Origin: Candidatus Benthortus lauensis
GTDB lineage: Archaea > Thermoproteota > Nitrososphaeria_A > Caldarchaeales > Wolframiiraptoraceae
DNA: 40,169 nt
Assembly: GCA_021650775.1 (NCBI GenBank)
Contig: JAHSRM010000062.1
Coordinates: 1 to 40,169, forward strand
Direction of reading: 5' to 3'
A program made the position numbers and the translations under genes. The notes below the pieces were generated by a model. That model was not told the DNA's origin. It ran no database searches and saw only the letters and a list, made by a program, of their open reading frames with translations. This document shows positions 3,288 to 40,169 of this stretch, piece after piece. Each line of letters starts with the position of its first letter. Position 1 is the first letter of the stretch.

Positions 3288-3352
3288 TTTGCATGATGAT
3301 TCTTCTCTTGACATATTGTGTTGGGATGAGGAATCATTTAAGCGAGCCTAGT

Positions 3353-24368: not shown

Positions 24369-24996
24369 CCGAGTAGTATCTGCAGTATCTGGTGAAGGGG
24401 CATACCTCGCATCTGGGTCTAGGGCTTCTGCAAATCTCCCTGCCAAACCTGACCAACAGCATGTTGAGGTATCTACGCTTCTCCACGGGGGTCAGCTCCT
24501 CGAGCTTCCGCTTTACCTCACCGTATCCATCCTTCTCATCCGCTATCCCGAGGCGTTTCGCTATGGTCTCCACGTGGGTGTCTACGGCTATCTCCGGCAG
24601 CCCGAAGGCCACGGACAGCACTATGTCGGCCGTCTTCTCCCCGACCCCCGGCAAACTGAGCAGGGCATCCCTATTCCTCGGAACCCTCCCACCATACCTC
24701 TCCAAGATTATCCTGGAAACCTCCTTTATCCTCCTAGCCTTCACCCTATAGAACCCGGCAGGCCGTATAAGCCTTTCAATCTCCCGGACGGGCGCCGAGG
24801 CAAGCTCCCCAGCATCCTTAAATCTCTTGAACAACCTTAGATACGCCTCGTCGGTCTGCTCATCCCTAGTCCTATGAGACAGCATAGCCCCTATCAAGAC
24901 TTTGAAAGGATCCCTGCTCCCAACATGCTCAGGCCTATTAGGCCTATAACGCCTCTCAAGCTCCGACAGAATCTCGGCGAACACCCTGGGGTCCAA
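24346..24996 (-). CDS. nth: Endonuclease III (DNA glycosylase/AP lyase)
   Basis: The 216-residue base-excision-repair enzyme removes oxidised pyrimidines and nicks the abasic site. The helix-hairpin-helix LPGVGEKTAD (115-124) carries the catalytic Lys121, and Asp139 lies in the VDTHV motif. The C-terminal cluster loop Cys189-x6-Cys196-x2-Cys199-x5-Cys205 binds [4Fe-4S], as in canonical Nth. It is convergent with pcc1 and overlaps its end. The ATG at 24996 is about 90 nt from the divergent sod gene. Confidence 0.96.
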   Translation of the reverse strand: MDPRVFAEILSELERRYRPNRPEHVGSRDPFKVLIGAMLSHRTRDEQTDEAYLRLFKRFKDAGELASAPVREIERLIRPAGFYRVKARRIKEVSRIILERYGGRVPRNRDALLSLPGVGEKTADIVLSVAFGLPEIAVDTHVETIAKRLGIADEKDGYGEVKRKLEELTPVEKRRYLNMLLVRFGREICRSPRPRCEVCPFTRYCRYYSATRRASR

Positions 24997-25086: not shown

Positions 25087-25695
25087 ATGACCAAGAAGTA
25101 TGAGCTTCCCCCATTACCCTATGCGTATAATGCCTTGGAGCCGTATATAATTGAGGAGATAATGAGGCTGCACCACACCAAGCATCATCAGACATACGTT
25201 AATGGTGCGAACCAGGCTCTTGAGAGGTTGGAGAAGCTGAGGAAGGGAGAGTCGCAGGAGGGGATAAGGGCTGTGCTAAGGGACCTGAGCTTCAACCTAA
25301 GCGGGCATAAGCTCCACAGTGTCTTCTGGCCAAACATGGCCCCGCCGGGAAAAGGCGGAGGAACCCCCGGAGGAGCGATAGCAGACCAGATAAACAAAGA
25401 CTTCGGAAGCTTCGAGGCATTCAAGAAGCAGTTCAGCACCGCCGCCAAGACCGTTGAGGCAGTTGGATGGGCCATCCTAACCTACGACCAGGAATCCGAC
25501 ACCCTAATCATCTACCAAGTCGAGAAACAAAACTTCATGCACCCACCCAACCTACCACTCCTACTAACACTAGACGTATGGGAACACGCATACTACCTAC
25601 AATACAAAAACGACAGAGCCAGCTACGTAGACAACTGGTGGAACATAGTAAACTGGGACGACGTAGAAAAAAGATTCTCCAAAGTAAAAGCATAA
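25087..25695 (+). CDS. sod: Superoxide dismutase, Fe/Mn type
   Basis: The 202-residue enzyme disproportionates superoxide in the cytoplasm. The four metal ligands are visible: His29 (LHHTKHHQTYV), His77 (LHSVFW), Asp163 and His167 (LDVWEHAYY). Iron or manganese cannot be told apart from sequence. The frame is open 71 codons further upstream, but only the ATG at 25087 fits the family length and the TATA box 28 nt before it. Codon choice switches sharply: 15 of the first 62 codons end in T, but none of the last 75 or so do (see findings). It is the last housekeeping gene before the AT-rich respiratory island. Confidence 0.96.
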   Translation: MTKKYELPPLPYAYNALEPYIIEEIMRLHHTKHHQTYVNGANQALERLEKLRKGESQEGIRAVLRDLSFNLSGHKLHSVFWPNMAPPGKGGGTPGGAIADQINKDFGSFEAFKKQFSTAAKTVEAVGWAILTYDQESDTLIIYQVEKQNFMHPPNLPLLLTLDVWEHAYYLQYKNDRASYVDNWWNIVNWDDVEKRFSKVKA

Positions 25696-25749: not shown

Positions 25750-26301
25750 CTAAGTCTTGTCATCGCCCGTAAGCAGGCTATGCAGCAGTTTTAGATCATT
25801 TCTAACATATTTCTCTATACATTTGACCAGCTGTTTTATTATGTCATTTTCCTCATAATTTACAAGTAATGGTATAAGATGCACGTTAAGAAATCTATGT
25901 TGGATTCTCCTTATCTTGACCTTTTCATCTTCACGCTTCATTAACACATTTGCTCCCTCGTCCATTATCAATTGGACCATGAAGGCTAACATCGTTGTTA
26001 AATGATCAGGCTTTGCCGACAAATATTCATATCCAGCATTTCTATAAAACTCGTTTATAGTCATGGGATATAGTTTTCGAGCAGCTGGATCCAGGTCTTT
26101 ACGTATTTTTCTTCCTAGGAAGTTTGGAATCTCCCTATATGCGTTATGTAATATTTCTTTTGGATCAATATTGCATCCGAGTTCTTTTATCTTCTCCAAA
26201 ATAATCAAAGTGCTTGGATCTTTGATTTCAAGAAGTCTAAATAATGTGTAGAGGGTTGTGTAGAATGTGCGTCTAGCGTTAATTAATTTGTTCTCATTCA
26301 T
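25750..26301 (-). CDS. TorD-family molybdoenzyme chaperone (likely)
   Basis: The 183-residue all-helical protein lies 34 nt downstream of a large molybdoenzyme gene. The early helix (RRTFYTTLYTLFRLLEI), a Tyr-rich middle (LYPMTINEFYRNAGYEYL) and especially KPDHLTTMLAFMVQLIMDE match the TorD/DmsD/NarJ pattern around the Asp-His cofactor-maturation motif. Such chaperones bind the Tat signal of the catalytic subunit and hold it until the molybdopterin cofactor is inserted. Its partner here should be the product of the adjacent gene. Overall similarity is weak, so the call rests on the motif plus neighbourhood. It is strongly AT-rich. Confidence 0.72.
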   Translation of the reverse strand: MNENKLINARRTFYTTLYTLFRLLEIKDPSTLIILEKIKELGCNIDPKEILHNAYREIPNFLGRKIRKDLDPAARKLYPMTINEFYRNAGYEYLSAKPDHLTTMLAFMVQLIMDEGANVLMKREDEKVKIRRIQHRFLNVHLIPLLVNYEENDIIKQLVKCIEKYVRNDLKLLHSLLTGDDKT

Positions 26302-26335
26302 TGTCTTAAGATTTGTTAAAAATAATTAAGGGTTT

Positions 26336-29300
26336 TTACCAGATTATCTGTGGAACTTCTAGCTTCTTTTCTCGGCCTGTCGGCCTTATTTTTGTTGGTG
26401 TTATGAAGTATGCTTGTGCTGCTCCTATCCAGCTTAGGAGTGGCCAGTTGCCGAGGGACGGGTCTGCCGCCTGTATGAGGTTGGGTGTTACACCGTTAAA
26501 TCTCCATTCATCTGGCTTGAGGCCTGTTGTGTAGTAATCTGCGGGACTCTTGGTGAAGAGTAATTGTTTAACGAGTTTGGGTAGTTTTCTGAGAGGATTG
26601 ACCGCCTCTTCGGGTATGATTACCTTGTCTGGAATTTCTTCGAATATACTTCTTATCGTAGGGTCTTTTATGTCTTTTATGTATTTTGGCTTCTTGATTA
26701 CTGTGTCCGACCACCTTCCGAGCCCGTAGGGTATTGCTATGACTCCTTTTGCTACTGTAGGTTCTACTACAGCCGTCGCTGTTATGACGCCGTATGGTGT
26801 CTCAATCTCTATTATCTCCATGTTCTTTATTCCTGCTTTCTTCGCATCCTCTGGATTAATTAATACGAAGTTTTCGGGGATAACCTGACGTATCCAGTAG
26901 TAGAACAGGCTTCTATGTTTTGTTAGGAGAGGCCCTGTTAGGTATACTAATGTTAGGGGCCATTCACGTCTTGGCCATATCTCTCTTAATGGTGTGCCTG
27001 CTAATCCTATTCCTCCTTTTCCATCCACGGGGGCGTATGTTGCCGCTGGAATATATTTGGGCCCTCCATAGAACTTCTCACCAGTTATGCTGTTACGGGT
27101 CTTGGCAAGCTTCTCGTTCCATAGTTTTGCTACTCCATCTCCGAAGGGCTTACGTTTCGAGTATCCACGTTCATCGAATGATTCCTCATATTTTGTGAAA
27201 ATTCCTCCCCTTGCAAGGGCATATGCTATATACCTCCACTCATCCTCCGGCACAATATCTTTGAACTTAGCTATTGGATAGTTCTTTTCGACGAATTTAA
27301 TCTCTGACTCTGGAACATCTTCAGGTATTAATCCACGATCCTTTGCGTCCATGGCTCCATTTGCGTATACCCTCATTATGTATTCCCAGAGGCAGTGGAG
27401 GGGGAACCATTGGCCTTCATATTTTTTCTCCGCAACTCCAGGTATTCCTTTGTCTCCATACCCTGGGGCTCCTAAAGCCTTGGCCACATCTATGAGAAAC
27501 TCCCACATACTGGCCCATCTATCGTGTCCATTGGGGCATTTTCCTATGTGTTCTGTGAGAGGAAGGATTGCGGGAGACCTCCATCCCTCTTCCAGCGTCC
27601 CCCCTCCACTATTAGCGTATAGATACTGCATTCCAAGCGTCCCTGTCTCGAGATACGTGGTGTCAGGAACTATATAGTCAGCATACATAAAGGTTTCATT
27701 TATTGTGGTTGTTATGGCTATGAATAGCGGTATCTTCTTAGTATCTTTTAGGACTTCTATGAATTTTATCCCATAGTTCGCAGAAAGGACTGGATTTGCA
27801 TAATACATTATTAGTGCTCCTATACTGTATGGATAGTTCTCGGAGATTCCGGCGAAAAGCTCCGTATAGCTTTCTTCGGGTGTTAAAGGATACCACGGTC
27901 TTTTAGCCGGGTATGGATTTTCACCTTTCTTAACTTTGAGCCAGTATTCCAGGGTGTTCTCATATTCGTATTTATGCCTATCAATTGGCGGCCCGAAGTG
28001 GGGTGGTTCTCCGAAATGTTTCTTATAGCCAGTGCTGTATAGATAGTCATTGTATTTTGTGTGAGAAGCCCTGGCCATTAATCCACCTTTCTTGTTTAGA
28101 TTTCCTATCAGTATGTCAAGTGTTCTGAATACCCATACCGAATATTCGCCGTTGGGATGCATGCCGACGCCTCTATGTATATATGTTGATGCCTGTGGTG
28201 CTGCTGCGGTGAAGTCTCGGGCCATCTCTATAATCGTTTTGACTGGCACGCCGCATATTGACGACCATTCTTCGAGCGTTCTGCTGAATGCTTCTTCCTT
28301 TAATATCTGGAATGGAGTCTTAACTAATACCTCCTCCCCTGATGTTAGCCTTACTCTTCCACTAAACTCTATATCAGCCTTCTCAACAGCGTCATATACT
28401 GTTAGGGTGCCGTTTACGGATACTACTGGTTTATCGGAGTCTTCGACTCCTATATCGGAGGCCTTTAGGAATTCGCCGAATCTAGGGTGTCCCTTCTCAA
28501 ATATTACTAGCCATGTAGCGTTTGTATGAACTGGGTAGCCCCTTATCTTCTTGGCTGCTTCAAGGTTTGTGATGGATAGGAATTCTTCATCGAATCTATT
28601 GTTCTCGATAATCCATCTAACCATGCCCATTGCTAGTGCTGCGTCTTCACCAGGTTTTATCGGAACCCATACCATCGTTCCTCTGGTTCCCAATGTTCTC
28701 GGCGCTGTCGGGTTTACATAGTAAACCTTAACGTCGCCTTCTACAGCTCTCTCAATCAACAGTCCCTGGCCCGTGGCTCCTGGATGCTGCCTCCCCATAC
28801 TTACTCCAGCCATTATCACTACCTTAGCTCCCATTACATCTGCATTAATGTCATGGTATCCTGCCCAGAGCTTGTTGCCAGCATAATAACCCAGTTGGCA
28901 TGCTGAGGTATGACGGAGCATATTCACGCTTCCGAGAGCATATACCCACCTCTTGTAAAAGTAGTCTGCATGTCCCTGACCTCGTCCTCTTACAAAGACT
29001 ATCTTGTTTGCAAGGAATCCCAAATCCGGTCTATCAGGATTTATTAGAACATCTTCTAGGCTCAGCCCTATCTGACCTAGCTTAGATGACCATTTTGACT
29101 TAAACTCTTCAATAGCTTTTATGAGATCTTCATAGCTTATCTTGTCATCTCTCGCCTTATTCATCAGTTCTTTTACATCTTCCTTAATTTGTGAGAGTAT
29201 CTCATTGGGATCTTCTACTCCTGCTTGTTTTAGTTTACCGTAGACAAAGAACTCTCTGAGTCCTGGTAGCTTCTCGCCAGTTTCTTCTATCACGCCACCC

Positions 29301-29803
29301 TCAACAACTTCTCTTATCAGTTGTTCCCAAGATATCACTTTCCATTTTCCGCTTCCACGTGGACCTGCTCTCTTTAACGGTTTAACCACTCTATATGGGT
29401 CATATACGTAGTGTATTCCATCTTGTCCTCTTGCACATAGCGTTCCATGCCATTTGGTTAATGCATCTTCTACTGGCGTTCGGTAGTCTAGCTGGGTATA
29501 ACGTTTTACCTGTTTATCATAGGATACTGCTCTATTGTATGGGTGATATGGGTTTCCCTCTATTCTCTCGATTACTTCAACACCATTATAATCTACTACA
29601 CGCACAGTAATCCCGCATCTTACATTGCATCCCAAGCAGACTGAGTTAACATATCTTACGTTTGCTCCCTTCTGGGGGTCTGGTTGATAGAGCTGGCGTT
29701 TTGGCTTAAATATCTGTTCTATAGTCGGATAGTATCCTGCTAGAAATGCTCCTAGTGATGCGACGGCAACTATACCTTTTAACAGGTCTCTCCGGCTACT
29801 CAC
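26336..29803 (-). CDS. Molybdopterin oxidoreductase catalytic subunit, TtrA/PsrA/ArrA type
   Basis: The 1155-residue DMSO-reductase-family protein starts with a Tat signal (SSRRDLLKG plus a hydrophobic stretch), so it is exported folded. Cys56, Cys59, Cys63 and Cys123 form the N-terminal [4Fe-4S] site. Cys302, in RHTSACQLGYYAG, sits where the Mo ligand is expected. A Cys ligand excludes NarG (Asp) and DMSO/TMAO reductases (Ser). The C-terminal cofactor domain (VLINPEDAKKAGIKNMEIIEIETPYG) is complete. The length and gene order B-C-A favour tetrathionate reductase, but polysulfide, arsenate or selenate reductase remain possible. The start is a GTG overlapping the upstream NrfD-like gene (GTGA), with GGGAGGTGAAGGAGA just before it. 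Confidence 0.88.
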   Translation of the reverse strand: MSSRRDLLKGIVAVASLGAFLAGYYPTIEQIFKPKRQLYQPDPQKGANVRYVNSVCLGCNVRCGITVRVVDYNGVEVIERIEGNPYHPYNRAVSYDKQVKRYTQLDYRTPVEDALTKWHGTLCARGQDGIHYVYDPYRVVKPLKRAGPRGSGKWKVISWEQLIREVVEGGVIEETGEKLPGLREFFVYGKLKQAGVEDPNEILSQIKEDVKELMNKARDDKISYEDLIKAIEEFKSKWSSKLGQIGLSLEDVLINPDRPDLGFLANKIVFVRGRGQGHADYFYKRWVYALGSVNMLRHTSACQLGYYAGNKLWAGYHDINADVMGAKVVIMAGVSMGRQHPGATGQGLLIERAVEGDVKVYYVNPTAPRTLGTRGTMVWVPIKPGEDAALAMGMVRWIIENNRFDEEFLSITNLEAAKKIRGYPVHTNATWLVIFEKGHPRFGEFLKASDIGVEDSDKPVVSVNGTLTVYDAVEKADIEFSGRVRLTSGEEVLVKTPFQILKEEAFSRTLEEWSSICGVPVKTIIEMARDFTAAAPQASTYIHRGVGMHPNGEYSVWVFRTLDILIGNLNKKGGLMARASHTKYNDYLYSTGYKKHFGEPPHFGPPIDRHKYEYENTLEYWLKVKKGENPYPAKRPWYPLTPEESYTELFAGISENYPYSIGALIMYYANPVLSANYGIKFIEVLKDTKKIPLFIAITTTINETFMYADYIVPDTTYLETGTLGMQYLYANSGGGTLEEGWRSPAILPLTEHIGKCPNGHDRWASMWEFLIDVAKALGAPGYGDKGIPGVAEKKYEGQWFPLHCLWEYIMRVYANGAMDAKDRGLIPEDVPESEIKFVEKNYPIAKFKDIVPEDEWRYIAYALARGGIFTKYEESFDERGYSKRKPFGDGVAKLWNEKLAKTRNSITGEKFYGGPKYIPAATYAPVDGKGGIGLAGTPLREIWPRREWPLTLVYLTGPLLTKHRSLFYYWIRQVIPENFVLINPEDAKKAGIKNMEIIEIETPYGVITATAVVEPTVAKGVIAIPYGLGRWSDTVIKKPKYIKDIKDPTIRSIFEEIPDKVIIPEEAVNPLRKLPKLVKQLLFTKSPADYYTTGLKPDEWRFNGVTPNLIQAADPSLGNWPLLSWIGAAQAYFITPTKIRPTGREKKLEVPQIIW

Positions 29804-30975
29804 TCTCCTTCACCTCCCATATCACCAGTAGCATACTTTCCATCCCATGGGAAAATCCAAGAAAGTATAGTGAATACGAATACTCCTGCCGCGAATATGC
29901 TGAGAGCTGCGATAAGCCCTTCCTTCCCAAATATCGGCATATTATACCATAGTAGTCCTTGCTCTGTCCTTGATATTATTTGACCGCCTATTACCATGTT
30001 CCATCTATATGCTAGCACTCCGAGTAGGGCTAGGAAGGATGACGTGAGAATTGCTAGTAGATTCTTCCTTAGCCTGGGTATTAGAAGCAGTATAAGCGGA
30101 ATAGCGCCCCCTATTATAAATTCTATTATACCTGTTGCTACCATTATCTCAAACTTTAATGCATGTAGATAAGGCCAGCTAGCGGTTCTATGATAAGCCC
30201 TATAGAGTTCGTCCGTTCCCTTAAGAGCAAGGTCGATAAGCAGTGTCCAAGCGAGTAATCCAGCTAAGCCATATACTACGCCTTTGTCAAGTTTCTTCGC
30301 ATATGATGCGAAGGCATAGTAGACTATGATTAGTATTGCTATTCCTGATACTATTGCTGACACAAGGAAATCGACCGCCATGAATGGAGTTGCCCATAGG
30401 ATTCTCGCCTTGATACTTCCGAATAAGAAGCCTACGTAGGCGTGGAATAATGCTGCTAATGGTATTCCTATAAATGCAAGAACAGTCACTATCTTTTTAT
30501 CCCTTCTCAGCATATTTTCGGTAACCTCTCTAGCGCCTAATGAGAGCAATTTGTAAAGAGGTTTAAGTCTAGTGTTTTGTTTAGCTTTTTCGACCATATC
30601 GGCTCTCCAGATAAAGATTATCTCGACGGCCATTAGGATTATGTAGCTTATTAGCAGGAACCCGAATACTGCCATTGGTGAAACGTTTGGATATTGGGGG
30701 GTGGCAATCAAGTGGGGTCTGGTGAAGATCTCCCATGCTCTGTCAGGCTGCTTCAAGTCAGCTATAAGAGGTAGAGAGGCTATTAAGAGAAGGGTGAATG
30801 ATAGAAGAACCGCTATTCCAGCTATTTTCTTGTAGTTGGTCTTCCCAAGTGCGTATGCTAATGAGCTAACTATGAATGCTCCTGCCACCAGCCCCGTTAT
30901 ATACGGATAGATTGCTATCAACACACCCCATATAACCGGTTGGGCCATTTCATTCGGGTATATGAACTGCTCCAT
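29800..30975 (-). CDS. NrfD-family quinol-binding membrane subunit (TtrC/PsrC type)
   Basis: The integral membrane protein of about 391 residues has roughly nine hydrophobic helices and belongs to the NrfD/PsrC family, which anchors molybdoenzyme complexes and passes electrons from quinol to the iron-sulfur subunit. It has no haem-ligand His pattern of cytochrome b type. I chose the ATG at 30975; a GTG just upstream is also open. A strong ribosome-binding site overlaps the end of the iron-sulfur gene. Its stop overlaps the catalytic gene start, so B, C and A are translated as a set. Confidence 0.85.
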   Translation of the reverse strand: MEQFIYPNEMAQPVIWGVLIAIYPYITGLVAGAFIVSSLAYALGKTNYKKIAGIAVLLSFTLLLIASLPLIADLKQPDRAWEIFTRPHLIATPQYPNVSPMAVFGFLLISYIILMAVEIIFIWRADMVEKAKQNTRLKPLYKLLSLGAREVTENMLRRDKKIVTVLAFIGIPLAALFHAYVGFLFGSIKARILWATPFMAVDFLVSAIVSGIAILIIVYYAFASYAKKLDKGVVYGLAGLLAWTLLIDLALKGTDELYRAYHRTASWPYLHALKFEIMVATGIIEFIIGGAIPLILLLIPRLRKNLLAILTSSFLALLGVLAYRWNMVIGGQIISRTEQGLLWYNMPIFGKEGLIAALSIFAAGVFVFTILSWIFPWDGKYATGDMGGEGE

Positions 30976-30981
30976 CACACG

Positions 30982-30991
30982 TCACCTCCTA
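30982..30991 (-). promoter_or_regulatory. Strong Shine-Dalgarno site for the NrfD-like gene
   Basis: AGGAGGTGAC on the minus strand lies about 6 nt before the ATG at 30975 and overlaps the stop of the upstream iron-sulfur gene. It decides the start in favour of 30975/30978. Confidence 0.6.
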
Positions 30992-31684
30992 TCGATTAGC
31001 TTCTTCAGGAAGTCCTATGTAAAAGACCATAGGCTTGTTGCCTGTCCATGGCTTCCACCTGGATACCGAGTTATTCCTTACAAGCTTCGAAACTTCACTC
31101 TCAGGGTCATTAATGTCTCCGAATATTCTAGCCCCGGTTGGACATGCTTCAACACAAGCAGGTAATCTACCCTCGTAGATTCTATGAGAGCATAAAGTGC
31201 ATTTATCAGCGACTCCCTTAATTGGATTGAAGAATCTAGCGCCATACGGGCAGTTTTGGATGCAGGCTCCACATCCTATGCATACTGTATCATCCACGAG
31301 AACCTCGCCATTGGCTGCTTTATACGTGGCATTAACCGGGCATACTTCAACGCATGAAGGCTCATCGCAGTGATTGCACATCTTAGGAACAAATATTACG
31401 CCGCCATCATCCTTTACATAACGTTCAACCCAGGTTCTGAAAACGCCTATGGGAACATTATTCTCTGCAGCACATGCCGCCAAACATGCATAACACCCAT
31501 AACATTTAGAGACATCTATTACCATAGCCCATCTCTTATCACCTAACTCCTCAGAAACCTCGGATTTCTCCGCTAATAGAGACCCCGTCAAAGCAACGCC
31601 CACAGCGAAACTACACATAGACGCTAGAGCCTCACGTCTACTTACCTGATCATCACCAGTATTCTCGGATATTTTCCCCGTCAT
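30989..31684 (-). CDS. Four-cluster ferredoxin-like subunit (TtrB/PsrB type)
   Basis: The 231-residue electron-transfer subunit has sixteen cysteines in four groups (61/64/67/71, 103/106/111/115, 135/138/141/145, 162/165/177/181), each binding a [4Fe-4S] cluster. It is first in the B-C-A-chaperone operon. An N-terminal SRREAL twin-arginine motif at 15-20 followed by a hydrophobic stretch points to Tat export, so the catalytic side of the complex faces outside the cell. TtrB-type subunits carry such a signal. Electrons should run from quinol through the NrfD-like protein to these clusters and then to the Mo centre. Confidence 0.9.
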   Translation of the reverse strand: MTGKISENTGDDQVSRREALASMCSFAVGVALTGSLLAEKSEVSEELGDKRWAMVIDVSKCYGCYACLAACAAENNVPIGVFRTWVERYVKDDGGVIFVPKMCNHCDEPSCVEVCPVNATYKAANGEVLVDDTVCIGCGACIQNCPYGARFFNPIKGVADKCTLCSHRIYEGRLPACVEACPTGARIFGDINDPESEVSKLVRNNSVSRWKPWTGNKPMVFYIGLPEEANR

Positions 31685-31708
31685 GCATACACCTTATATA
31701 ATACGTGG

Positions 31709-31717
31709 AATTTAACG
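31709..31717 (-). promoter_or_regulatory. TATA-like box of the molybdoenzyme operon
   Basis: CGTTAAATT on the minus strand is centred about 29 nt upstream of the iron-sulfur subunit ATG at 31684. It lies in the 187-nt AT-rich gap 31685-31871, the largest gene-free stretch in the window. That gap also holds other AT-rich boxes (ATTATATAAGG near 31692-31702, CAATAAAAGAC near 31722-31732), so the choice of box is uncertain. Confidence 0.35.
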
Positions 31718-31871
31718 CCTTGTCTTTTATTGCATACAATTTCATAAATCTGAACAAAATTATAATCATGAAAATAAATTCAGATAAACTTTCATGTCTA
31801 CGATTTATATTTTAAGGGGTCTAAATATGGGAAAAATCAAGGTATGTTATGTTGAGGAGGTTGTCTTCCAT

Positions 31872-32378
31872 TTATCCTTGTATTATTACTTTGCCCCACA
31901 TTCCTAGTTCGATATGTCCTGGCACTTGGCATATGTAAAGGAATTCGCCGGCTTGCTTTGGGATTATTGATACAGATCTTTCTCCGTCAGGCCCTATCGG
32001 AGAGGTTGGTGTTCCTATCTGGACTCCGAATAAAGGTGTCGCATCGAATCGCTTCTCATTTGATATAGCTAATGTATGGGGTAGATTTCCAACGTTCTTG
32101 AATGTAATCTTGGTTTTTTCTCCAACCTTTAATACGATGTCAGGCCCTGGGGAAGTTAATTCATCTGGCGAGAACCCGTATCCATACTTATTGACCGATA
32201 TCTCGCCGCCATAAATTATGAGTTCCCGTTCTCCTGCACCCTCGGCGGGCGTCGGCGCCTGACCTCCAGGCATCAAGAACATTATACCTACAATAGCAGC
32301 CGCAACAACTACTACCGCCACAACTATACCTATCTTAGCGCTTGTTGAAAGCGCCAAACCATTCTTACGCAAATCCAT
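31872..32378 (-). CDS. Membrane-anchored type I copper protein (cupredoxin)
   Basis: The 168-residue protein has an uncleaved-looking N-terminal membrane segment (about 13-36), a Pro/Ala/Gly linker and a cupredoxin domain. The copper ligands are His101 (NLPHTLAI), Cys150, His155 and Met160 (YICQVPGHIELGM), the type I blue-copper set. It faces the outside of the cell. It lies after nosY but has its own strong TATA box. No cytochrome c gene is near, so it is the obvious local candidate to reduce the CuA centre of NosZ; it could also serve other terminal oxidases. Confidence 0.88.
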   Translation of the reverse strand: MDLRKNGLALSTSAKIGIVVAVVVVAAAIVGIMFLMPGGQAPTPAEGAGERELIIYGGEISVNKYGYGFSPDELTSPGPDIVLKVGEKTKITFKNVGNLPHTLAISNEKRFDATPLFGVQIGTPTSPIGPDGERSVSIIPKQAGEFLYICQVPGHIELGMWGKVIIQG

Positions 32379-32400
32379 GTAGATATGCTTATTGGACCAC

Positions 32401-32409
32401 TATAAAAAC
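32401..32409 (-). promoter_or_regulatory. TATA box of the cupredoxin gene
   Basis: GTTTTTATA on the minus strand is centred about 27 nt upstream of the ATG at 32378. It gives the cupredoxin a leaderless transcript separate from the nos genes, in an 85-nt gap after nosY. Confidence 0.55.
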
Positions 32410-32463
32410 ATGATATAGCATGCCTCCTAACATGTCAGGGAACCAAAGGGCTAGCTTATGAGT

Positions 32464-33288
32464 CTATAGGTCTTGAAGATTAAAGATCTTCATGGAAATT
32501 ATTAATGATCCTAATGTCCATGCTAATAAGCTTCCTAATAAGATGTAAGGTAGGGCCGCCTTAAATAATTCGGTTAGGTAGATTCCTGAGGGACCGAGAA
32601 GAAGTAGGGATGGATCTATGAAAGATATCATGAGGAGTCGGGCGGCTTCAACAGGGTTAATCATAACCAAGAATACTAGGTCTTGTAGGGGTATCTTCAT
32701 CGTGATAGTTAGCCCTATGATGATAAATTCATAGATTATGAGTAGGAAAAGCCATGAGAGGAGAATTATGCCTAATGCTTCGAATCGGCTTCTCGAGATA
32801 ACAGATATTATTAGTCCAAATGCTGTTAAAGAAGCTGCTAATGCCAAGCAACCCGATACTATTAGGAGGTATATTGACAGATCTGCTGATGAAAGAAACA
32901 TCCACAGATACCATGATGCTATTCCATATCCCAACATTGTTGCTAAAGTTATCGAGACAGTTATGCCTAGAAACTTGCTCAGGATTATCTCATTTTTAGA
33001 CACAGGCTGAGATAAGATTATTTCTAATGTTCCTTTTTCACGTTCACCAACTATTGATAGGCCGGCCAAAGACATGGACATAAGAGGTATCATGTATAAA
33101 GCCATATTAACTAAGGCTGCGGAAACTCTTCCAAACGCCCTAAACCCTAAGACCCCTAATCCCATGTATCCATAATATGAGAATGTTAATCCTAATGCAG
33201 CAAAAGACACGGTATAGAGGATCAGCCACTTATTTCTAAACGAGTCACGTATTTCTTTGAGAAGAAGTGCTGTGAAGGCCATCTTCAC
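32464..33288 (-). CDS. nosY: ABC transporter permease, NosY type
   Basis: The 274-residue integral membrane protein has six hydrophobic segments. The ABC-2 permease marks include the N-terminal KEIRDSFRNKW helix and the segment GEREKGTLEIILSQPVSKNEI. In nos clusters NosF and NosY form an ABC transporter that works with NosD to supply sulfur or copper for CuZ assembly in NosZ. The start is a GTG at 33288 overlapping nosF (GTGA), or an ATG two codons later. It is the last gene of the run starting at nosZ. Confidence 0.87.
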   Translation of the reverse strand: MKMAFTALLLKEIRDSFRNKWLILYTVSFAALGLTFSYYGYMGLGVLGFRAFGRVSAALVNMALYMIPLMSMSLAGLSIVGEREKGTLEIILSQPVSKNEIILSKFLGITVSITLATMLGYGIASWYLWMFLSSADLSIYLLIVSGCLALAASLTAFGLIISVISRSRFEALGIILLSWLFLLIIYEFIIIGLTITMKIPLQDLVFLVMINPVEAARLLMISFIDPSLLLLGPSGIYLTELFKAALPYILLGSLLAWTLGSLIISMKIFNLQDL

Positions 33289-34145
33289 ACCCCACCCTTT
33301 ATCCTCATGATTAACTCATCTACACTAGGTTCCTCAACTATGATCTTACCTTCAATTGCCCCGGTTATATCCCTGAGAACACCTATAAGATCTGTAGTAG
33401 TTATAGTGATCCATCCTGTGGGGTGATGTTCAACGTTATCTACCTTAAGGTTAATCTTCTCTTTAGGATATACGTGGATTTTATAGCTAGGATTCATTAT
33501 AGATAATATCTCCATGGGTCTTGATGACTTCAGTATTCTACCTTTATCTAAAACGATTATCCTATCTGATATTGGTAGTAGCCCGCTTATGGTATGGGTT
33601 GAGATTATTATTGTCTTTCCCCGTCTTCTTAAATCCAGAATTAACTTGATGGCGTCAGATTTACTCTCAGCATCAAGGTTGCTAAACGGCTCATCCATTA
33701 GAATTACGTCAGGGTCTCCGAGTAGAGTTAAAGCTATGCCAAGTTTCTGCCGCATTCCGCCTGAAAGCTCGCCAACCTTCGTATCAGCTTTATCCATAAG
33801 TCCAAGAGGCTCTAAAACATCTTCTAAATATACATCAACACCTCTTAAGTTTGAGAAAAAGTCGAGAAGCTGGGTGCATGTCATATCACTGTATAAACTT
33901 ATTGTCTGGGGTAGGTAGCCCATAATCTTCCTAATCTTCTTTAGTTCTTTCTTAACGTCATATCCCTTTATCAATATTTTTCCTTGAAAGGATATTAGCC
34001 CCATCATACATCTTAAGAGCGTGGTCTTTCCCGAACCATTAGGGCCTAGGAGGAGAACCAGCTCTCCTTCACCCACGTCGAGGGAAACATTGTTGAGGGC
34101 TGTGAAATTCTTAAACCGCTTAGATACCTCCCTTACTTCTATCAT
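33285..34145 (-). CDS. nosF: ABC transporter ATP-binding protein, NosF type
   Basis: The 286-residue ATPase has Walker A GPNGSGKT (34-41), the signature LSGGMRQ (127-133), Walker B VILMDEP (147-153) and the switch His in ISTHT. A C-terminal accessory region of about 70 residues follows. It partners NosY, whose start it overlaps. Its own start lies inside the 3' end of nosD (26-nt overlap) behind a GGGGAGGTAACC ribosome-binding site. Position within the nos cluster, rather than sequence, identifies it as NosF. Confidence 0.9.
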   Translation of the reverse strand: MIEVREVSKRFKNFTALNNVSLDVGEGELVLLLGPNGSGKTTLLRCMMGLISFQGKILIKGYDVKKELKKIRKIMGYLPQTISLYSDMTCTQLLDFFSNLRGVDVYLEDVLEPLGLMDKADTKVGELSGGMRQKLGIALTLLGDPDVILMDEPFSNLDAESKSDAIKLILDLRRRGKTIIISTHTISGLLPISDRIIVLDKGRILKSSRPMEILSIMNPSYKIHVYPKEKINLKVDNVEHHPTGWITITTTDLIGVLRDITGAIEGKIIVEEPSVDELIMRIKGGV

Positions 34146-35475
34146 GGTTACCTCCCCTTAAAATTAGTATAATTGATATTATGGGTAGAACAGTTAAAAT
34201 TATTGCAGCGATAAGCCATTCAGGTGTTAGCTTTGAGATATTCTCTGGAAGATTGTTGTGCGGTTTTGTTGATGGGTATATGTCGATGGCCTTGATTCTT
34301 GGATTGATTGGTAATGTTTTCTTCATAAGTTCTAGGGTTAGGTATGCTGGACTATACATGAAGAGTCTTAGGTTTGGATTCTGGTCTATTAGGTCCTCGG
34401 CAATGCTCTGGACAACGTGAGGTGAGTCTCCAGCTCCTTTGTAATCGCTCCAGAAATTGCCCTCCCAGTGGATATTTGGGGTATAGTATCCCTCAAGGAG
34501 TATCTGCTCCATATTCTCTACAAAATCATTACCACGGAATTTTCCACGTGATTCCGAGTCAATCCTCACTCCAACATAATTGAATGCTATCAAATTGTTT
34601 TCCACACGTAGATAAGTTGTTTCGGGTGGGTAAGGAGAATAAGTTATGTCTAAGCCGAGGAAATGACCATAGATAATATTCTTTCTTAGAGTTACATTCC
34701 CAGCCTCTCTTATGAATATCCCCTCACTTACAACCAGCCCTTTATTATTTGCCACAGTATTATTAATTACATGCAGGTTAATAGAATACATCAAAGCCAT
34801 TCCAACTAGATTACGTGTAACTATGTTATCTTTGATAATATAGTCGTCAGAATACATTAGATGGATGCCATACCGTGAATTGGTTATGTAGTTATTTTTT
34901 AGCGTATTATTGTATGCGTGTTCGTTATAGATTCCGTCTTTTGAATAGCTTATTCTGTTTGATTCCACGGTGTTGTTGAAACTATACCATAGATATACGC
35001 CATATCCCCTGTCATTAAGGCTCTTCTCCTTAAAACTTGAGATAATGTTGTTTCTTATGATACTGTTCCATGAATTTTGCAGGTATATTCCAAATAGAAC
35101 ATTCTCGATAATGTTGTTGAATATTAGAGTGTTGTTTGCTTTTATTTTTATTCCAGCCGCATCACTTCCATACCATTCATCGGAATTTATTATTCTTAGA
35201 CCTGTGATAGTTACATCGTTTGCCTCAACTATTATTACGTCTCCCTTCTTTCTTCCGTCTATCGTGGGCCATCCTTCTCCTATTATCTTGAGCGGCTTGG
35301 TGATTATCAGGGGACCGTAATAAACTCCTCTCGGAATTATCAGCGTTGAGTATGGCTCTGCTTTTTCTATTAGTTCTTGTAGGTTTATGGGGGAAGGAGT
35401 TGTATTGCTTGCGTAGATTATCTCGGGGAGTATAAGGAGGGAGATTATTAATGGAATGAAGTTTATCTTATTCAT
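34120..35475 (-). CDS. nosD: NosD, right-handed beta-helix maturation factor
   Basis: The 451-residue exported protein has a Sec signal peptide (1 to about 22). A long right-handed beta-helix of Asn-rich repeats follows (NNIIENVLFGIYLQNS, NRISYSKDGIYNEHAYNN, NYITNSRYGIHLMYSDD, and so on). The C-terminal membrane anchor (about 419-440) ends in a charged tail. The DGIYNEHAYN and GIHLMYSDD repeats match NosD. NosD works with NosF and NosY to mature the CuZ site. The start overlaps the stop of the upstream membrane-protein gene by 8 nt. Strongly AT-rich. Confidence 0.92.
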   Translation of the reverse strand: MNKINFIPLIISLLILPEIIYASNTTPSPINLQELIEKAEPYSTLIIPRGVYYGPLIITKPLKIIGEGWPTIDGRKKGDVIIVEANDVTITGLRIINSDEWYGSDAAGIKIKANNTLIFNNIIENVLFGIYLQNSWNSIIRNNIISSFKEKSLNDRGYGVYLWYSFNNTVESNRISYSKDGIYNEHAYNNTLKNNYITNSRYGIHLMYSDDYIIKDNIVTRNLVGMALMYSINLHVINNTVANNKGLVVSEGIFIREAGNVTLRKNIIYGHFLGLDITYSPYPPETTYLRVENNLIAFNYVGVRIDSESRGKFRGNDFVENMEQILLEGYYTPNIHWEGNFWSDYKGAGDSPHVVQSIAEDLIDQNPNLRLFMYSPAYLTLELMKKTLPINPRIKAIDIYPSTKPHNNLPENISKLTPEWLIAAIILTVLPIISIILILRGGNHDRSKGGI

Positions 35476-36037
35476 TTTTGCTTTCTCCCCGGTTTCTTAT
35501 TTTTGGTGTTATCAGGATTATAGCTGAGACTAGGGGTAGGAAGAATGCTGGTCCTAGATAGCTTGTTATGTCAAAGTTTGCGATTTTATGGACTCCGAAG
35601 AATGGAGGGTCGAAGGGCTCTATCTCTATGGGGGCGTTCGGGTTTATCGTATGGGTGTAGTTATACATCCAGATATAGGCGTAGATGGGGACCCCTGCCA
35701 ACAGGACTACGTATATTAACCACACCAGGTAGAATGTTTTTCCTTTCTCATTTAATATGCCAGCAATTATCGATAAGGCTATAAGGGTCAGATAGACGTA
35801 GGGTATGTATTGTAGTTCTGGTATTTTTTCTGGGGATATTTCTCCGAGGCCAACATAGTGATTAACGACGTTCACGTTCTTTAGGTCTCCTTTAAGTCCG
35901 AATAGAGGATATACTTCTACTGTTAGGGGCTGTGCTAGGAATGGTGCCTTCATGGAGATTCCCCAGAAGGGTGTGAAGAGCGAGATTATGACGAGGATTG
36001 GTGGAACGACTCTTATCATTATTTCTTTGACCTTCAT
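35468..36037 (-). CDS. Nos-cluster membrane protein, possibly NosB-like
   Basis: The 189-residue protein has four hydrophobic segments (about 9-25, 80-98, 103-125 and 160-180) with an external loop of about 50 residues after the first, and a charged C-terminus. I do not recognise a defined domain. Its place between nosL and nosD resembles that of NosB, the small membrane protein found in many clade II nos clusters, whose function is unresolved. The call rests on position, size and topology only. It starts 2 nt after the nosL stop. Confidence 0.5.
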   Translation of the reverse strand: MKVKEIMIRVVPPILVIISLFTPFWGISMKAPFLAQPLTVEVYPLFGLKGDLKNVNVVNHYVGLGEISPEKIPELQYIPYVYLTLIALSIIAGILNEKGKTFYLVWLIYVVLLAGVPIYAYIWMYNYTHTINPNAPIEIEPFDPPFFGVHKIANFDITSYLGPAFFLPLVSAIILITPKIRNRGESKNE

Positions 36038-36039
36038 GC

Positions 36040-36543
36040 TTATTCACCAGATTTAATATTAGGAATCCTTTCTATTAACTTATTCCAGTCGAGAACCTCT
36101 CCATCATATTCTAGGGCAGCTTTCTCGGCTTGAGTCCTCTCCTTAAAGGCTATAACTCCATACCCCATAGGGGTCCTTAGTTTTGTGAGGTTAGCCGAAA
36201 CATACCATGCTTTAACGGCGTCTACCGCTTCTCCTGTAGGGAAATCATGAACCTTTATTGCCTTAATTTCGTATTTATGTCTATACTCGAGGTAATCGAG
36301 AACCATTTCTCCTATGTCGTCGTATTTCCACCAATCGTTAATGCTATCAGCTACATACATGGCGGCGGCATACCTTATATCGCTAATTATCATCTCGCAT
36401 CTTTTACATTTTTCCTGGCCTAGCATTATTGTTAATTCGGGTAATTCCTCGGATGTTTGAAGCGTGGTTAGGTAAAATGCCGATATGGATACTATAATTA
36501 TGATGATAATGATGGAAAAAATTATGGATTTTTTTACGGGCAT
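36040..36543 (-). CDS. nosL: NosL copper chaperone
   Basis: The 167-residue protein carries the NosL copper(I) site Cys46-x2-Cys49-x-Met51 (CKRCEM), followed by the family run ISDIRYAAAM, a YDDIGEM segment and LRTPMGYGVIAFKERTQAEKAA. NosL delivers copper for NosZ maturation. Most bacterial NosL proteins are lipoproteins; this one instead has an N-terminal Ile-rich membrane anchor (about 7-28) and no lipobox Cys. It lies 4 nt after nosZ and is surely co-transcribed. Confidence 0.9.
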   Translation of the reverse strand: MPVKKSIIFSIIIIIIIVSISAFYLTTLQTSEELPELTIMLGQEKCKRCEMIISDIRYAAAMYVADSINDWWKYDDIGEMVLDYLEYRHKYEIKAIKVHDFPTGEAVDAVKAWYVSANLTKLRTPMGYGVIAFKERTQAEKAALEYDGEVLDWNKLIERIPNIKSGE

Positions 36544-36547
36544 GGAT

Positions 36548-38605
36548 TTACACCGGTTCTACTTCAAGCCATCCCGCCATCTCTAGGTGTAGGGGTGAGC
36601 AGAACTCGACGCAGTAGTATGCGAATACGCCTGGCTTGTCGGCTACGAATTCGACGGTCGCCGTTTCACCCGGCTCTATGCTTGCCATTACATTGTATTC
36701 GGCCACGGCAAATGCGTGTGTAGCGTCTTTTGTAGTCTCGATGTTTGTCATATGTATTCTTACTAGGTCTCCTTGCTTACATCTAATTATGTCAGGCGTT
36801 ATGGTGCTTCTGATAAGCGTCATCCAAACTTCTGTGACCCATCTGTCGCCCTCCTTCTTTCTCTCATATCCTACCTTGCCCTCAACGTATTGCGGATGCT
36901 TGGAGAACGTCTCTGGGTCTGTTCCCATCTCATAGACTTCGAGTGGTTTTAGCTTCTCGATTGATATAATTTTCGCATAGTGGGGCTCTCCTAGCCCTAT
37001 TGGGCAGTCGTATAGTAGCCTCATTTTCTCTCCTGAGATATCGATTAGCTGGAAGTTTTGTGGTAGAAGTGGGCCGACGTTCGGGAACCTGTCCACAGAC
37101 CATTTGTTGAGTGCGACTAGGTATTTCCCTTTGGGGGATGGTGAATTGCTTTCGGGGGTCGCTAAGTGTCCGATGTTATAGTGTATCGGTATTCTATCGA
37201 CTACTTGGAATGGCTTGTCTCCCGTGTAGTCTGGTGGGCCTAGAGTGTATTTCACAACCTCGTTTGAGATGAAGCAGCTTACGTATCCATGACCCTTATC
37301 GTCGAATTCATCGTGAAGCGGCCCTAACCCAACCTCTATTTGTGCGGCTTTGACATCCTCGAAACGCAGTATCGGGACTCCATATGGGTCTTCACCCTGG
37401 AACCTCTGGTCCGCTATGGCTTCCTTTATCTTTTCAATGTCGTAAATTGTTACTTGTGGATCGAGTTTCCCTCCTATGACGATGTATCTTCCGCTTGGGC
37501 TTATATCACATCCGTGGGGGCTCTTGGGCTCGGGGGCGAAGAACAGGATGCCCTCCTTTATCGCTGTGTCAAGCGTTATCACCTTTATTCCATTCATCTC
37601 CTTCGCTTTACCAGCTCTTACGATTTCCTCCGCCTTCTTCCAATTGACTATGTGTAGGTAGTCGAAGTCGTTTTGTGAGGCAGCTACTTCTAATGGTGGC
37701 CGCCCCTCGAGGACGCCGCCTATAGCCATCTCAGTGTTGATAGAGTTTGTGAATGCCCATCCATCGCTTGGTCCCCACCCAATAATCTCGAGGTCCTGCA
37801 TGTATGGTGGCAACTCTATTTGGAAGCTATTGGCTAGGTCGAATTTACCGGTTCTTCTATCGAATCGGAGGAAGGTCATGGTTCCTCTGAAGTATTCCTG
37901 GTAGTTTGTTTCTGTTAGCTGAACGTAGGTTACTCCAGGTTTGTATCCTCTTCCTGGCTCCCATGGGGCTGGGAATTGGCTTCCACAGGAGACATACTCG
38001 GTGTTTGGCGAGGCACATGCTCCTCCGTGCTGGGTCTGCGTGTTAGGTATCTTTACTATGTCTTTGGTCTCAAAGTCTTTCAGGCTTATCGAGGCCTTAC
38101 GGGCGTTTAGCTTATCTCCTATGAATAGCCATTCTCCATCGAATTCGGCGTTTGTCCTGCTTATCTCGGGATGATGGGTGTCGCCTAGTGTGAGGAATCT
38201 TATGCCATTGCTACCCTTCTCGAGCAACTTCATAGTCTTTACATCGCCGTAACCGTACCCCTGCCAAGGCTCCGGGGTGAACACAGCTATTACTCGGTAT
38301 AACTTCATCGAGGGGATGCCGAATACGAGAACTTGGCCACTGTGGCCTCCGGAGGAGAACATTATAAACTCGTCCTGCCAACCGCCTGGAACATACGTCT
38401 TCAGCGCACCATATACATGGTCTGGCTCTAGTTTCCGCTCGGATATAACGTCCTGGATCTCCCTCGGGAACGGCGCCGCAGGAGCGGTCAGCCTTGACAA
38501 CGTAAATCCCGCGGCTCCACCTACCGCTAAGCCGCCTATGGTAGCCGCTATGAACTTTCTTCTGCTAACCTTTTTCCCATTATCAGACTTTTTCACTACA
38601 CCCAT
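36548..38605 (-). CDS. nosZ: Nitrous oxide reductase NosZ
   Basis: This 685-residue multicopper enzyme reduces N2O to N2 outside the cytoplasmic membrane. The seven CuZ histidines are all present: H144, H145 (GDTHHPE), H193, H364, H431, H480 and H542. Their spacing follows the classical bacterial enzyme, apart from small insertions. The C-terminal cupredoxin domain has the CuA ligands H630, C665, C669, H673 and M676 (YYCVEFCSPLHLEM), with Glu667 where many bacterial enzymes have Trp. The N-terminus is a twin-arginine signal (SRRKFIA at 14-20). The core (GDTHHPEISRTN, ASISLKDFETK) looks more like clade II NosZ, most of which use Sec export. First gene of a nosZ-L-B-D-F-Y run. Confidence 0.97.
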   Translation of the reverse strand: MGVVKKSDNGKKVSRRKFIAATIGGLAVGGAAGFTLSRLTAPAAPFPREIQDVISERKLEPDHVYGALKTYVPGGWQDEFIMFSSGGHSGQVLVFGIPSMKLYRVIAVFTPEPWQGYGYGDVKTMKLLEKGSNGIRFLTLGDTHHPEISRTNAEFDGEWLFIGDKLNARKASISLKDFETKDIVKIPNTQTQHGGACASPNTEYVSCGSQFPAPWEPGRGYKPGVTYVQLTETNYQEYFRGTMTFLRFDRRTGKFDLANSFQIELPPYMQDLEIIGWGPSDGWAFTNSINTEMAIGGVLEGRPPLEVAASQNDFDYLHIVNWKKAEEIVRAGKAKEMNGIKVITLDTAIKEGILFFAPEPKSPHGCDISPSGRYIVIGGKLDPQVTIYDIEKIKEAIADQRFQGEDPYGVPILRFEDVKAAQIEVGLGPLHDEFDDKGHGYVSCFISNEVVKYTLGPPDYTGDKPFQVVDRIPIHYNIGHLATPESNSPSPKGKYLVALNKWSVDRFPNVGPLLPQNFQLIDISGEKMRLLYDCPIGLGEPHYAKIISIEKLKPLEVYEMGTDPETFSKHPQYVEGKVGYERKKEGDRWVTEVWMTLIRSTITPDIIRCKQGDLVRIHMTNIETTKDATHAFAVAEYNVMASIEPGETATVEFVADKPGVFAYYCVEFCSPLHLEMAGWLEVEPV

Positions 38606-38635
38606 GGTTCTCGGGAGTAGTAAAGGGATGGGGGT

Positions 38636-38646
38636 GATATATTCAT
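38636..38646 (-). promoter_or_regulatory. TATA-like box of the nos operon
   Basis: ATGAATATATC on the minus strand is centred about 36 nt upstream of the nosZ ATG at 38605. A second AT-rich block (TGATTATTTTAAAC, 38667-38680) lies further upstream in the same 82-nt gap. Either could be the box. Confidence 0.35.
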
Positions 38647-38687
38647 GTTGCCATACATATCAGGAAGTTTAAAATAATCATATGTAA

Positions 38688-39722
38688 TCACCTGCCTACA
38701 AGTATATACAGGATATTTGGGAGAAGCAGGAGCACGGCGACGATATTTAATAGCCCGCCAGCCTGTCTTAGAGCTGTATCGAGAAGCAAGCCGCCTACAA
38801 CACGGGATATTAAAGATATGTTTAGCAGCAATGTTGGGAGATAGAAGGCCGGGTTATATCTTATTCTTCCGCCAAATATTGATGGTATTATTAGAGGTGC
38901 GTGGGCGATAATCATGTGGAAGACAAAGCCTAGGAAGAATGAATGAAGGACTATATCGGTCATGTATGGATGTTTAAGAAAGGGGTAGAGTATCCAGGCC
39001 GCTCCAGAAGTAGCTAGCCAGCAATAACCCGTTAGTAGGTTAATGGCCATGAATCTTCGGAATCCCGTAGTCTTCAGCCCTGCTCTAGCTACATCATATC
39101 TTAGCAACCATATACTTGATGTTAGTAGTAGGAATCCGAAGATAGGTGATGTGCTAAGGTCTACCATTAGGATTAACGTGCTAAGAAGGGTTAGCCCTCC
39201 GATGACTATTAGGAGTCTCTGGATACCCGGCTTAACAGCCATTCTAGATAGTTCTAGTCTTTCAGATATTATGGTTAGGGTTAAAAACCCTATCCAGGCA
39301 GGTATCGAGGATGTGAAGGAGCCCTGTATCCATGTTAAGACTCCTAGCAGGAAGAGAGACGACGCCAGGGCCATCATATAGGTATAGGGTGCATGATGAT
39401 GTCTGACTATGTAGAGAGACTCTACGAGAAAAATCAATGAACCAATTAGAAGCAATGTTAATGAAAATCCATCTACCCCTATTATTTGTAATAAGCCTGC
39501 AAGGGCCAAGAGCATGGGGGCGCTCCACCAGACTATATTTCTGAGAGCAGCCCCTCGCTCCATCGATATTATGAAGCCGAGTAGGATTATCATTATTTGT
39601 CCATGGATTCTAGGATTAATTGTTAAGGGAGCTATGTTGAGTCCTATTCGCTCTAGGCCCGAGAATAGGCCGAGGAGAAGCATAAGAAGTATGAGGGGCA
39701 TTAGGAGGAACTTGAGTTGCAT
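38688..39722 (-). CDS. Polytopic membrane protein, NnrS-like
   Basis: The 344-residue protein has nine or more hydrophobic helices. Histidines placed in helices recall the NnrS family of haem- and copper-binding membrane proteins tied to nitric oxide metabolism: H40 (RIHGQIMIILLGF), H108-H110, and H260, H269 and H274 in LHSFFLGFVFHMIIAHAPLIIP. The following SRVVGG segment fits too. NnrS-like genes often lie near denitrification genes. Here it is just upstream of nosZ on the same strand, with an 82-nt gap that seems to hold a separate nos promoter. The family call is tentative; a haem-copper-oxidase-like subunit is the main alternative. Confidence 0.5.
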   Translation of the reverse strand: MQLKFLLMPLILLMLLLGLFSGLERIGLNIAPLTINPRIHGQIMIILLGFIISMERGAALRNIVWWSAPMLLALAGLLQIIGVDGFSLTLLLIGSLIFLVESLYIVRHHHAPYTYMMALASSLFLLGVLTWIQGSFTSSIPAWIGFLTLTIISERLELSRMAVKPGIQRLLIVIGGLTLLSTLILMVDLSTSPIFGFLLLTSSIWLLRYDVARAGLKTTGFRRFMAINLLTGYCWLATSGAAWILYPFLKHPYMTDIVLHSFFLGFVFHMIIAHAPLIIPSIFGGRIRYNPAFYLPTLLLNISLISRVVGGLLLDTALRQAGGLLNIVAVLLLLPNILYILVGR

Positions 39723-39755: not shown

Positions 39756-40169
39756 TTATGTTTTTCCTTCTATCTTGGCTTCCTGTAATACGAGTTTGTA
39801 TGTGTATCCTTCTACGAGTGCTTTGAGGCTTGCCTCTATTATGTTTCTTGAGTATGCTGTGCATGCCCATGATTCTTTTCCGTCGCTGAACTCTATGAAG
39901 ACTCTTACGGCTGCCCCTGTCCCGCTGTCGGTGTCCACCACCGAGACCTTATAGTTTGTGAGCTGGACTTCTCTCAGCTCTGGGAGTCTTCTGAGTAGGG
40001 CGTTCTTGAGCGCCAGGTCTAGGGCGTGGACTGGTCCTACCCCCTCTCCTACTCCGTGAACCACGTCCCCGTTTGCTTGGACTGTTACGTCTGCCTCTAC
40101 CCTGTGTCTGGGACCTCTCTCCACCATGACCCTCCATGTAAGGACCCTGAACCTCTCGGTGCTGTATCC
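39756..40169 (-). CDS. cimA: Citramalate synthase, C-terminal regulatory domain (5' part beyond window)
   Basis: The minus frame runs in from the window edge and ends at 39756, giving 137 codons of the C-terminal LeuA-type allosteric domain. Key segments are FRVLTWRVMVE, GEGVGPVHALDLALKNALL, ELREVQLTNYKVSVVDTDSGT and YSRNIIEASLKALVEGYTYKL, the last being the family ending. This pattern (GPVxALDxAL, DYKV-like, NIIEASxxAL, YKL) matches the long citramalate synthases that condense acetyl-CoA with pyruvate for isoleucine synthesis. 2-Isopropylmalate synthase has a related domain and cannot be fully excluded without the catalytic half. GC content returns toward the housekeeping level. Confidence 0.82.
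   Translation of the reverse strand, partial: GYSTERFRVLTWRVMVERGPRHRVEADVTVQANGDVVHGVGEGVGPVHALDLALKNALLRRLPELREVQLTNYKVSVVDTDSGTGAAVRVFIEFSDGKESWACTAYSRNIIEASLKALVEGYTYKLVLQEAKIEGKT

Follow-up and report, generated by a model that had tools for sequence, protein, structure and literature searches.

Tetrathionate reductase (Ttr) genes are known in the Caldarchaeales (PMC10547907), and nosZ, the gene for nitrous oxide (N2O) reductase, was reported earlier in the Aigarchaeota for HR02 (PMC5877337) and for Pelearchaeum and Calditenuis (PMC10547907). Pelearchaeum has been assigned to the Caldarchaeaceae and HR02 to the Calditenuaceae (PMC10547907). nosZ has been described as little transferred horizontally (PMC11409646), and lateral transfer of other enzymes into the Wolframiiraptoraceae has been reported (PMC9246946). 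Here we describe a respiratory island of 12 minus-strand genes at positions 25750-39722 of a 40169-bp window, which is an entire contig (C34) of a Caldarchaeales metagenome-assembled genome (MAG; 1.47 Mb, 112 contigs, 3.6% estimated contamination). The island comprises a Ttr-type molybdoenzyme operon (ttrB-C-A-torD), a gene for a rusticyanin-like cupredoxin, a nosZ-L-B-D-F-Y operon and an NnrS-like gene. Very probably it reached this lineage by horizontal transfer, from an archaeon related to the Caldarchaeaceae, and was inserted between pcc1 and cimA. The kinds of gene are known; what is new is the documented transfer, and neither an island in this family nor its empty site was found in the literature searched.

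The window's genome (G000) belongs to a third Caldarchaeales family, neither Caldarchaeaceae nor Calditenuaceae, and the MCM tree places it there firmly (SH-aLRT support 100). With those two set aside, this third family is probably the Wolframiiraptoraceae. We compared its own family (f1, 22 genomes), the Caldarchaeaceae (f2, 8 genomes) and the Calditenuaceae (f3, 12 genomes); g3 denotes a related genus within f1, and g7, g8 and g9 are genera within the Caldarchaeaceae. The relatives include two genomes of Candidatus Pelearchaeum (G006, G007), the Caldarchaeum-labelled DQVM01 (G008), Calditenuis fumarioli (G010) and HR02 (G014).

Comparison with the operons of Caldarchaeaceae

The nos loci of Pelearchaeum (WAQC01000103.1; P. 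maunauluense JANVYQ010000015.1) share with the window the nosZ-L-B-D-F-Y order, a NosZ of 84–86% identity and a nearby cupredoxin of the same family. They differ in that their cupredoxin gene is divergent from nosZ, whereas that of the window lies downstream of nosY, and in that neither a ttr operon nor an nnrS-like gene adjoins them. The ttr operons of Caldarchaeum and Pelearchaeum (G003, G005, G007) likewise agree with that of the window in gene order and at 78–88% identity, but have another chromosomal setting, with no nos operon adjoining.

Distribution and probable insertion site

The preliminary description had allowed for an island carried by all relatives, and this is not what is seen: nosZ occurs in none of the 21 other genomes of the family (1/22 overall), in 3/8 Caldarchaeaceae and in 2/12 Calditenuaceae. 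Among the Caldarchaeales relatives compared, a TtrA of this type was found outside G000 in three f2 genomes only, and the TtrA of f1 relatives is of a different type (61–63% identity in TtrA, about 30% in TtrC). Vertical retention could also produce such a pattern, if ttr and nos were already present in the order's ancestor and have since been lost from almost every other member of this family. The presence of nosZ in Calditenuaceae too, at 77% identity, is in its favor, as are the trees that make G000 sister to the Caldarchaeaceae rather than nested among them. We nevertheless regard it as improbable, as it needs repeated losses across the sampled family and must contend with the foreign composition of the island, the gene distances given below and a tight junction in g3.

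This junction lies between pcc1 and cimA. In each of the five g3 genomes the two genes converge and abut, their stop codons −15 to +28 bp apart, whereas in the window they are 15387 bp apart. Upstream of pcc1, four of the five carry the exosome block as in the window; the fifth contig ends just past pcc1. Because the exosome/proteasome block of the window is syntenic with g3 and the cimA fragment is closer to g3 (70%) than to Caldarchaeaceae (54%), both flanks belong to the host's own lineage. Outside g1 and g3, cimA sits elsewhere in the genomes examined. The empty site is thus not the one first predicted: sod and cimA were expected as direct neighbors, and this arrangement was absent from every cimA neighborhood examined.

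The pcc1-cimA gap also takes in nth and sod, both near-host in composition. nth is roughly as far from g3 as from f2. The sod type is common to f2 and to second copies in three g3 genomes, and a divergent nth-sod pair is present in the Caldarchaeum-family genomes G001 and G002. The idea that sod clearly belongs to the transferred DNA was dropped, as its identity to Caldarchaeaceae (84–88%) is poorly separated from that to the g3 second copies (83–84%). These two genes may have arrived separately from the island.

Relatedness of island and core genes

Identity to Pelearchaeum G007 reaches 86% for NosZ, 88% for TtrA and 85% for TtrC, against 66% for MCM and 53% for the cimA fragment. Scaled distances tell the same story. 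The ratio d(G000,g8)/d(g8,g9) is 0.93 (interval 0.74–1.15) for NosZ and 0.91 (0.84–1.00) for the other nos genes, versus 1.83 (1.55–2.18) for MCM; d(G000,g8)/d(g8,g7) is 0.79 (0.67–0.95) for TtrA and 0.99 (0.82–1.19) for TtrB and TtrC together, versus 1.45 (1.23–1.73) for MCM. The intervals of NosZ and TtrA do not overlap those of MCM. Under vertical retention the island genes should not be as close to Caldarchaeaceae as Caldarchaeaceae genera are to each other, or closer, while MCM is 1.5–1.8 times more distant. Horizontal transfer accounts for this excess similarity, and the predicted donor is an unsampled lineage within or beside the Caldarchaeaceae, at about genus-level distance from Pelearchaeum.

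Base composition and word usage

The fall in G+C noted by eye in the preliminary description is borne out by the gene values (Table 1): core genes of the window have a G+C of.52–.61 and a third-position G+C (GC3) mostly of.66–.79, against a G+C of.38–.43 from nosL to nosY and.35 in torD, with nosZ (.50) and ttrA (.45) between. Mean G+C is 0.431 in the island and 0.555 in the window core, and the rest of the genome, as sampled on 20 contigs, holds no 10-kb stretch below 0.475. Boundaries near 25.7 and 39.7 kb had been anticipated, and likelihood segmentation of G+C places the dominant change at 25505 (log-likelihood gain 276); the last change, at 39856, is weak. Low G+C as a signature of the donor was rejected, the ttr and nos copies of Pelearchaeum having a G+C of 0.48, like their own genome (about 0.49). 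Since the island is more AT-rich than these copies in its closest relatives, its immediate donor is unsampled.

In normalized tetranucleotide usage the island matches its own genome at 0.72, Caldarchaeaceae at 0.61–0.66 and g3 at 0.59; chunks of the host match at 0.93, and in relatives the nos or ttr blocks score 0.66–0.82 against their respective genomes (0.79–0.82 for those of Pelearchaeum and G008). Such usage is consistent with an insert that has already spent some time in this genome, and it speaks against a recent assembly join. A chimera, in which an AT-rich block from another organism of the metagenome was joined to the host contig, might be suspected from the estimated contamination, the 112 contigs and a right flank of merely 414 bp before the contig end. 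It is very improbable: with host-lineage sequence on both sides two false joins would be required, the block's word usage agrees best with the host, and intergenic spacing is normal at both block ends.

Transfer, as proposed in the preliminary description, is backed by the patchy distribution, the excess similarity relative to MCM, the empty site in five g3 genomes and the composition. Several observations weigh against it. MCM is the sole core yardstick for the ratios; the cimA fragment serves as a weaker control, and nth is not informative. The NosZ tree has G000 sister to g8 and g9 (85/87) and not inside the Caldarchaeaceae; the TtrA tree nests G000 in f2 (96), with the alternative not rejected (approximately unbiased (AU) test, p-AU 0.18); and two concatenates disagree on its nesting. 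The gene trees suggested at the outset for nosZ and the molybdenum subunit therefore gave distances that conflict with the core and a topology that fails to separate nested from sister placement, and nesting within Caldarchaeaceae by topology alone was dropped, as AU tests and concatenates do not decide. Word usage is still nearest to the island's own host. Other AT-rich patches exist in the genome, one with an oxidase common to g3, so low G+C alone is no proof of foreign origin. Finally, the island junctions showed neither an integrase or tRNA gene nor a boundary repeat: an Rfam scan of the window gave one tRNA-Gly, at 8184, and the sole repeat match was a chance-like 12 bp inside genes. Such features are typical of mobile islands and are not required for a transferred block.

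One proposed acquisition or two

ttr and nos could have been acquired separately at one hot spot, a variant compatible with transfer to which we give slightly less than an even chance. Among the relatives examined, ttr-nos adjacency was seen only in this genome. Pelearchaeum G007 has the two operons on different contigs, with no nos gene in the 8 kb upstream of ttrB; ttr is present in 0/24 named nosZ loci (flanks up to 10 kb); the nnrS-like gene and the cupredoxin are positioned otherwise elsewhere; and when 15 TtrA-bearing genomes of the phylum were searched for nosZ, two were positive, both with nosZ more than 300 kb from ttrA. On the other side stand the common strand, the near-identical G+C of the halves (0.432 and 0.429) and comparable scaled distances to a single genus. 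This equality of composition and distance allows a single event and leaves the number of events undecided.

Transfer into this lineage provides a case of archaeal nosZ for which there are an empty site, flanks of the host's lineage, a likely donor family and a measurement of the excess similarity. The case suggests that a thermophilic archaeal lineage can gain the capacity to act as an N2O sink in one piece, and the locus lends itself naturally to the question of how NosZ is supplied with electrons in an archaeon that lacks nos-linked cytochromes.

The Ttr-type molybdoenzyme

The preliminary description counted eleven genes plus a cupredoxin on one strand over about 14 kb between sod and cimA, and all 12 open reading frames (ORFs) do lie on the minus strand (Table 1). 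Their spacing suggests four transcription units: the nnrS-like gene, nosZ-L-B-D-F-Y, the cupredoxin gene and ttrB-C-A-torD. The molybdoenzyme operon holds, with its catalytic subunit now specified as TtrA-like.

This subunit has the Fe4S4 cysteines, and Cys302, invariant in an alignment of 22 homologues, is a candidate molybdenum ligand. Its predicted fold is closest to respiratory arsenate reductase (ArrA), perchlorate reductase (PcrA) and polysulfide reductase (PsrA). Because its score against the curated TtrA model (PRK14991) is 514 bits, below the equivalog cut-off of 1750, we file it as TtrA-like only. The operon has the subunit make-up of the Psr/Ttr/Arr type, namely a molybdenum subunit, a multi-cluster ferredoxin subunit and an NrfD subunit. 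It resembles tetrathionate reductase TtrABC in its B-C-A gene set, its NrfD-type C subunit and the best NCBIfam matches of A and B, which are to Ttr; it differs in the TtrA score far under the cut-off and in a TtrC that scores better with DsrP/NrfD models.

Two Ttr types occur in the Caldarchaeales (L013-L020 and L009-L011), and the conservation of TtrA (about 62%) with only about 30% in TtrC suggests that the membrane subunit has been exchanged. Pelearchaeum G006 (C20; L064 6992-11050) has a diverged TtrA-like ORF that contains an in-frame TAG and aligns by tblastn in broken segments; it may be a decaying gene.

The nitrous oxide reductase operon

NosZ scores 753 bits with the clade II model TIGR04246 (cut-off 625) and 377 bits with the clade I model, below its cut-off of 625. 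The CuZ histidines (88/144/145/364/431/480/542) and the CuA ligands (H630/C665/C669/H673/M676) are invariant in alignment with solved NosZ sequences; from family membership and these ligands, the protein is predicted to reduce N2O. A Sec-type signal peptide, typical of clade II NosZ, was not found; NosZ has instead a twin-arginine (RR) motif of the twin-arginine translocation (Tat) type, as do all Caldarchaeales homologues and two other archaeal ones of the phylum that were checked. Tat-type export of clade II NosZ is a recorded exception in archaea and Chloroflexota (PMC11409646), so the missing Sec signal does not disqualify the protein from clade II.

The N2O reductase operon, first described as complete, is so for the clade II nosZLBDFY set, in which neighboring genes overlap or stand at most 4 bp apart; the block lacks nosR, nosG/H and genes for cytochrome c. 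NosB has been described (PMC11388526), and orf189 is a putative NosB by position and hydrophobicity. Like the clade II systems of the Wolinella NosZ/NosB type, the window has a TIGR04246 match, a nosB-like gene, nosDFY and nosL. Unlike them, it has Tat-type rather than Sec-type export and a cupredoxin, and lacks nosG/H and cytochrome c genes. The cupredoxin is the best candidate donor to NosZ, since the block does not encode a cytochrome c, NosR or NosG/H, and Pelearchaeum has a cupredoxin gene of this family (53% identity) divergent from its nosZ.

The NnrS-like protein has no Pfam NnrS match itself; two of seven family members match PF05940, the best at 4e-4. Its model resembles cbb3 oxidase subunit I and the quinol-dependent nitric oxide (NO) reductase qNOR (Foldseek probability 1.00, TM 0.55–0.67, E-values >0.01), and His40, His260 and His274 are invariant. 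Longer NnrS-like paralogues (about 410–420 aa; L123, L128, L129) adjoin weakly scoring COX1-family genes in Calditenuaceae.

Proposed function

Judged from sequence, the island would form two independent terminal-reductase modules, a Ttr-type complex and a clade II N2O reductase. In the first, TtrC (NrfD) would take electrons from quinol and the iron-sulfur clusters of TtrB would pass them to TtrA, which, matured with TorD and exported by Tat, would reduce an extracellular oxyanion; tetrathionate or some other S-oxyanion is the most likely substrate. In the second, Tat-exported NosZ, with CuZ and CuA, would be matured by NosL and NosDFY and would work with the NosB-like membrane protein. The membrane-anchored cupredoxin probably feeds NosZ, replacing the cytochromes of other clade II systems, and the NnrS-like protein probably has a part in coping with NO stress.

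Table 1. Island genes and flanking features of the window.
Feature	Position	Strand	G+C/GC3	Evidence
pcc1 (KEOPS subunit), left host flank	24045..24368	+		Pfam Pcc1 9e-13; adjoins cimA in 5/5 g3 genomes
nth (endonuclease III), within synteny gap, host-like composition	24346..24996	-	GC3 0.68	63% to g3, 61% to Caldarchaeaceae
sod (superoxide dismutase), divergent from nth	25087..25695	+		88% to G008, 83–84% to g3 second copies
torD, TorD/NarJ-type molybdoenzyme chaperone	25750..26301	-	.35/.36	PF02613 5e-5; 60% to G005 homologue, also after ttrA
ttrA, TtrA-like catalytic molybdopterin subunit, 1155 aa, Tat signal	26336..29803	-	.45/.41	PRK14991 TtrA 514 bits; 88% to Pelearchaeum G007
ttrC, TtrC-like NrfD-family membrane subunit, predicted quinol-oxidizing	29800..30978	-	.43/.42	PF03916 4e-45; 85% to G007
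ttrB, TtrB-like multi-cluster ferredoxin subunit, RR motif	30989..31684	-	.46/.40	PRK14993 TtrB 218 bits, under cut-off
cupredoxin, membrane-anchored, rusticyanin-like	31872..32378	-	.46/.40	PF00127 6e-6, TIGR03095 6.5e-8
nosY, ABC-2 permease	32464..33288	-	.39/.39	PF12679 4e-22; order kept in all Caldarchaeales nos loci
nosF, ABC ATPase	33285..34145	-	.40/.40	PF00005 4.5e-32
nosD, beta-helix maturation protein	34120..35475	-	.38/.39	TIGR04247, above cut-off
orf189, hydrophobic protein in nosB position	35468..36037	-	.43/.48	homologue in 21/24 nosZ loci, bacterial ones included
nosL, copper chaperone	36040..36543	-	.39/.40	PF05573 7e-12
nosZ, clade II nitrous oxide reductase, Tat-type signal	36548..38605	-	.50/.55	TIGR04246
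NnrS-like membrane protein, heme-copper-oxidase-like fold	38688..39722	-	.44/.45	PF05940 in 2/7 family members, best 4e-4
cimA/leuA-family gene, C-terminal 137 aa, right host flank; truncated because the window is the whole contig	39756..40169	-		PF08502 8e-21; 70% to g3, 54% to Caldarchaeaceae

Heme-copper oxidases and other AT-rich patches

Of the three heme-copper oxidases of the genome, two have a long form (about 800 aa) that was not found in other f1 genomes, and one of these two shares 75% identity with Pelearchaeum. The respiratory set therefore appears broader than that of the family. A bolder reading, which we hold as doubtful, is that a single transfer of the two-acceptor island together with oxidase loci from Caldarchaeaceae-like archaea enabled one genus, in a family known for anaerobic tungsten-dependent metabolism, to respire O2, N2O and an S-oxyanion; a cupredoxin would then stand in for cytochromes in serving NosZ.

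Two of the genome's AT-rich patches carry a heme-copper oxidase gene, 74% identical to g3 in one (C25, L151 11365-13544) and 75% identical to Pelearchaeum in the other (C71, L194 5819-13459). Segmentation flags 2321-3445 as a second AT-rich patch of the window; a phosphorylase-superfamily (PNP_UDP_1) gene at 2529-3239 has a G+C of 0.41 inside a block of 0.58. In g3 the stretches read (L056, L060) have a G+C of 0.36–0.42, against 0.55 in the window core, which is a large difference for two genera of the same family.

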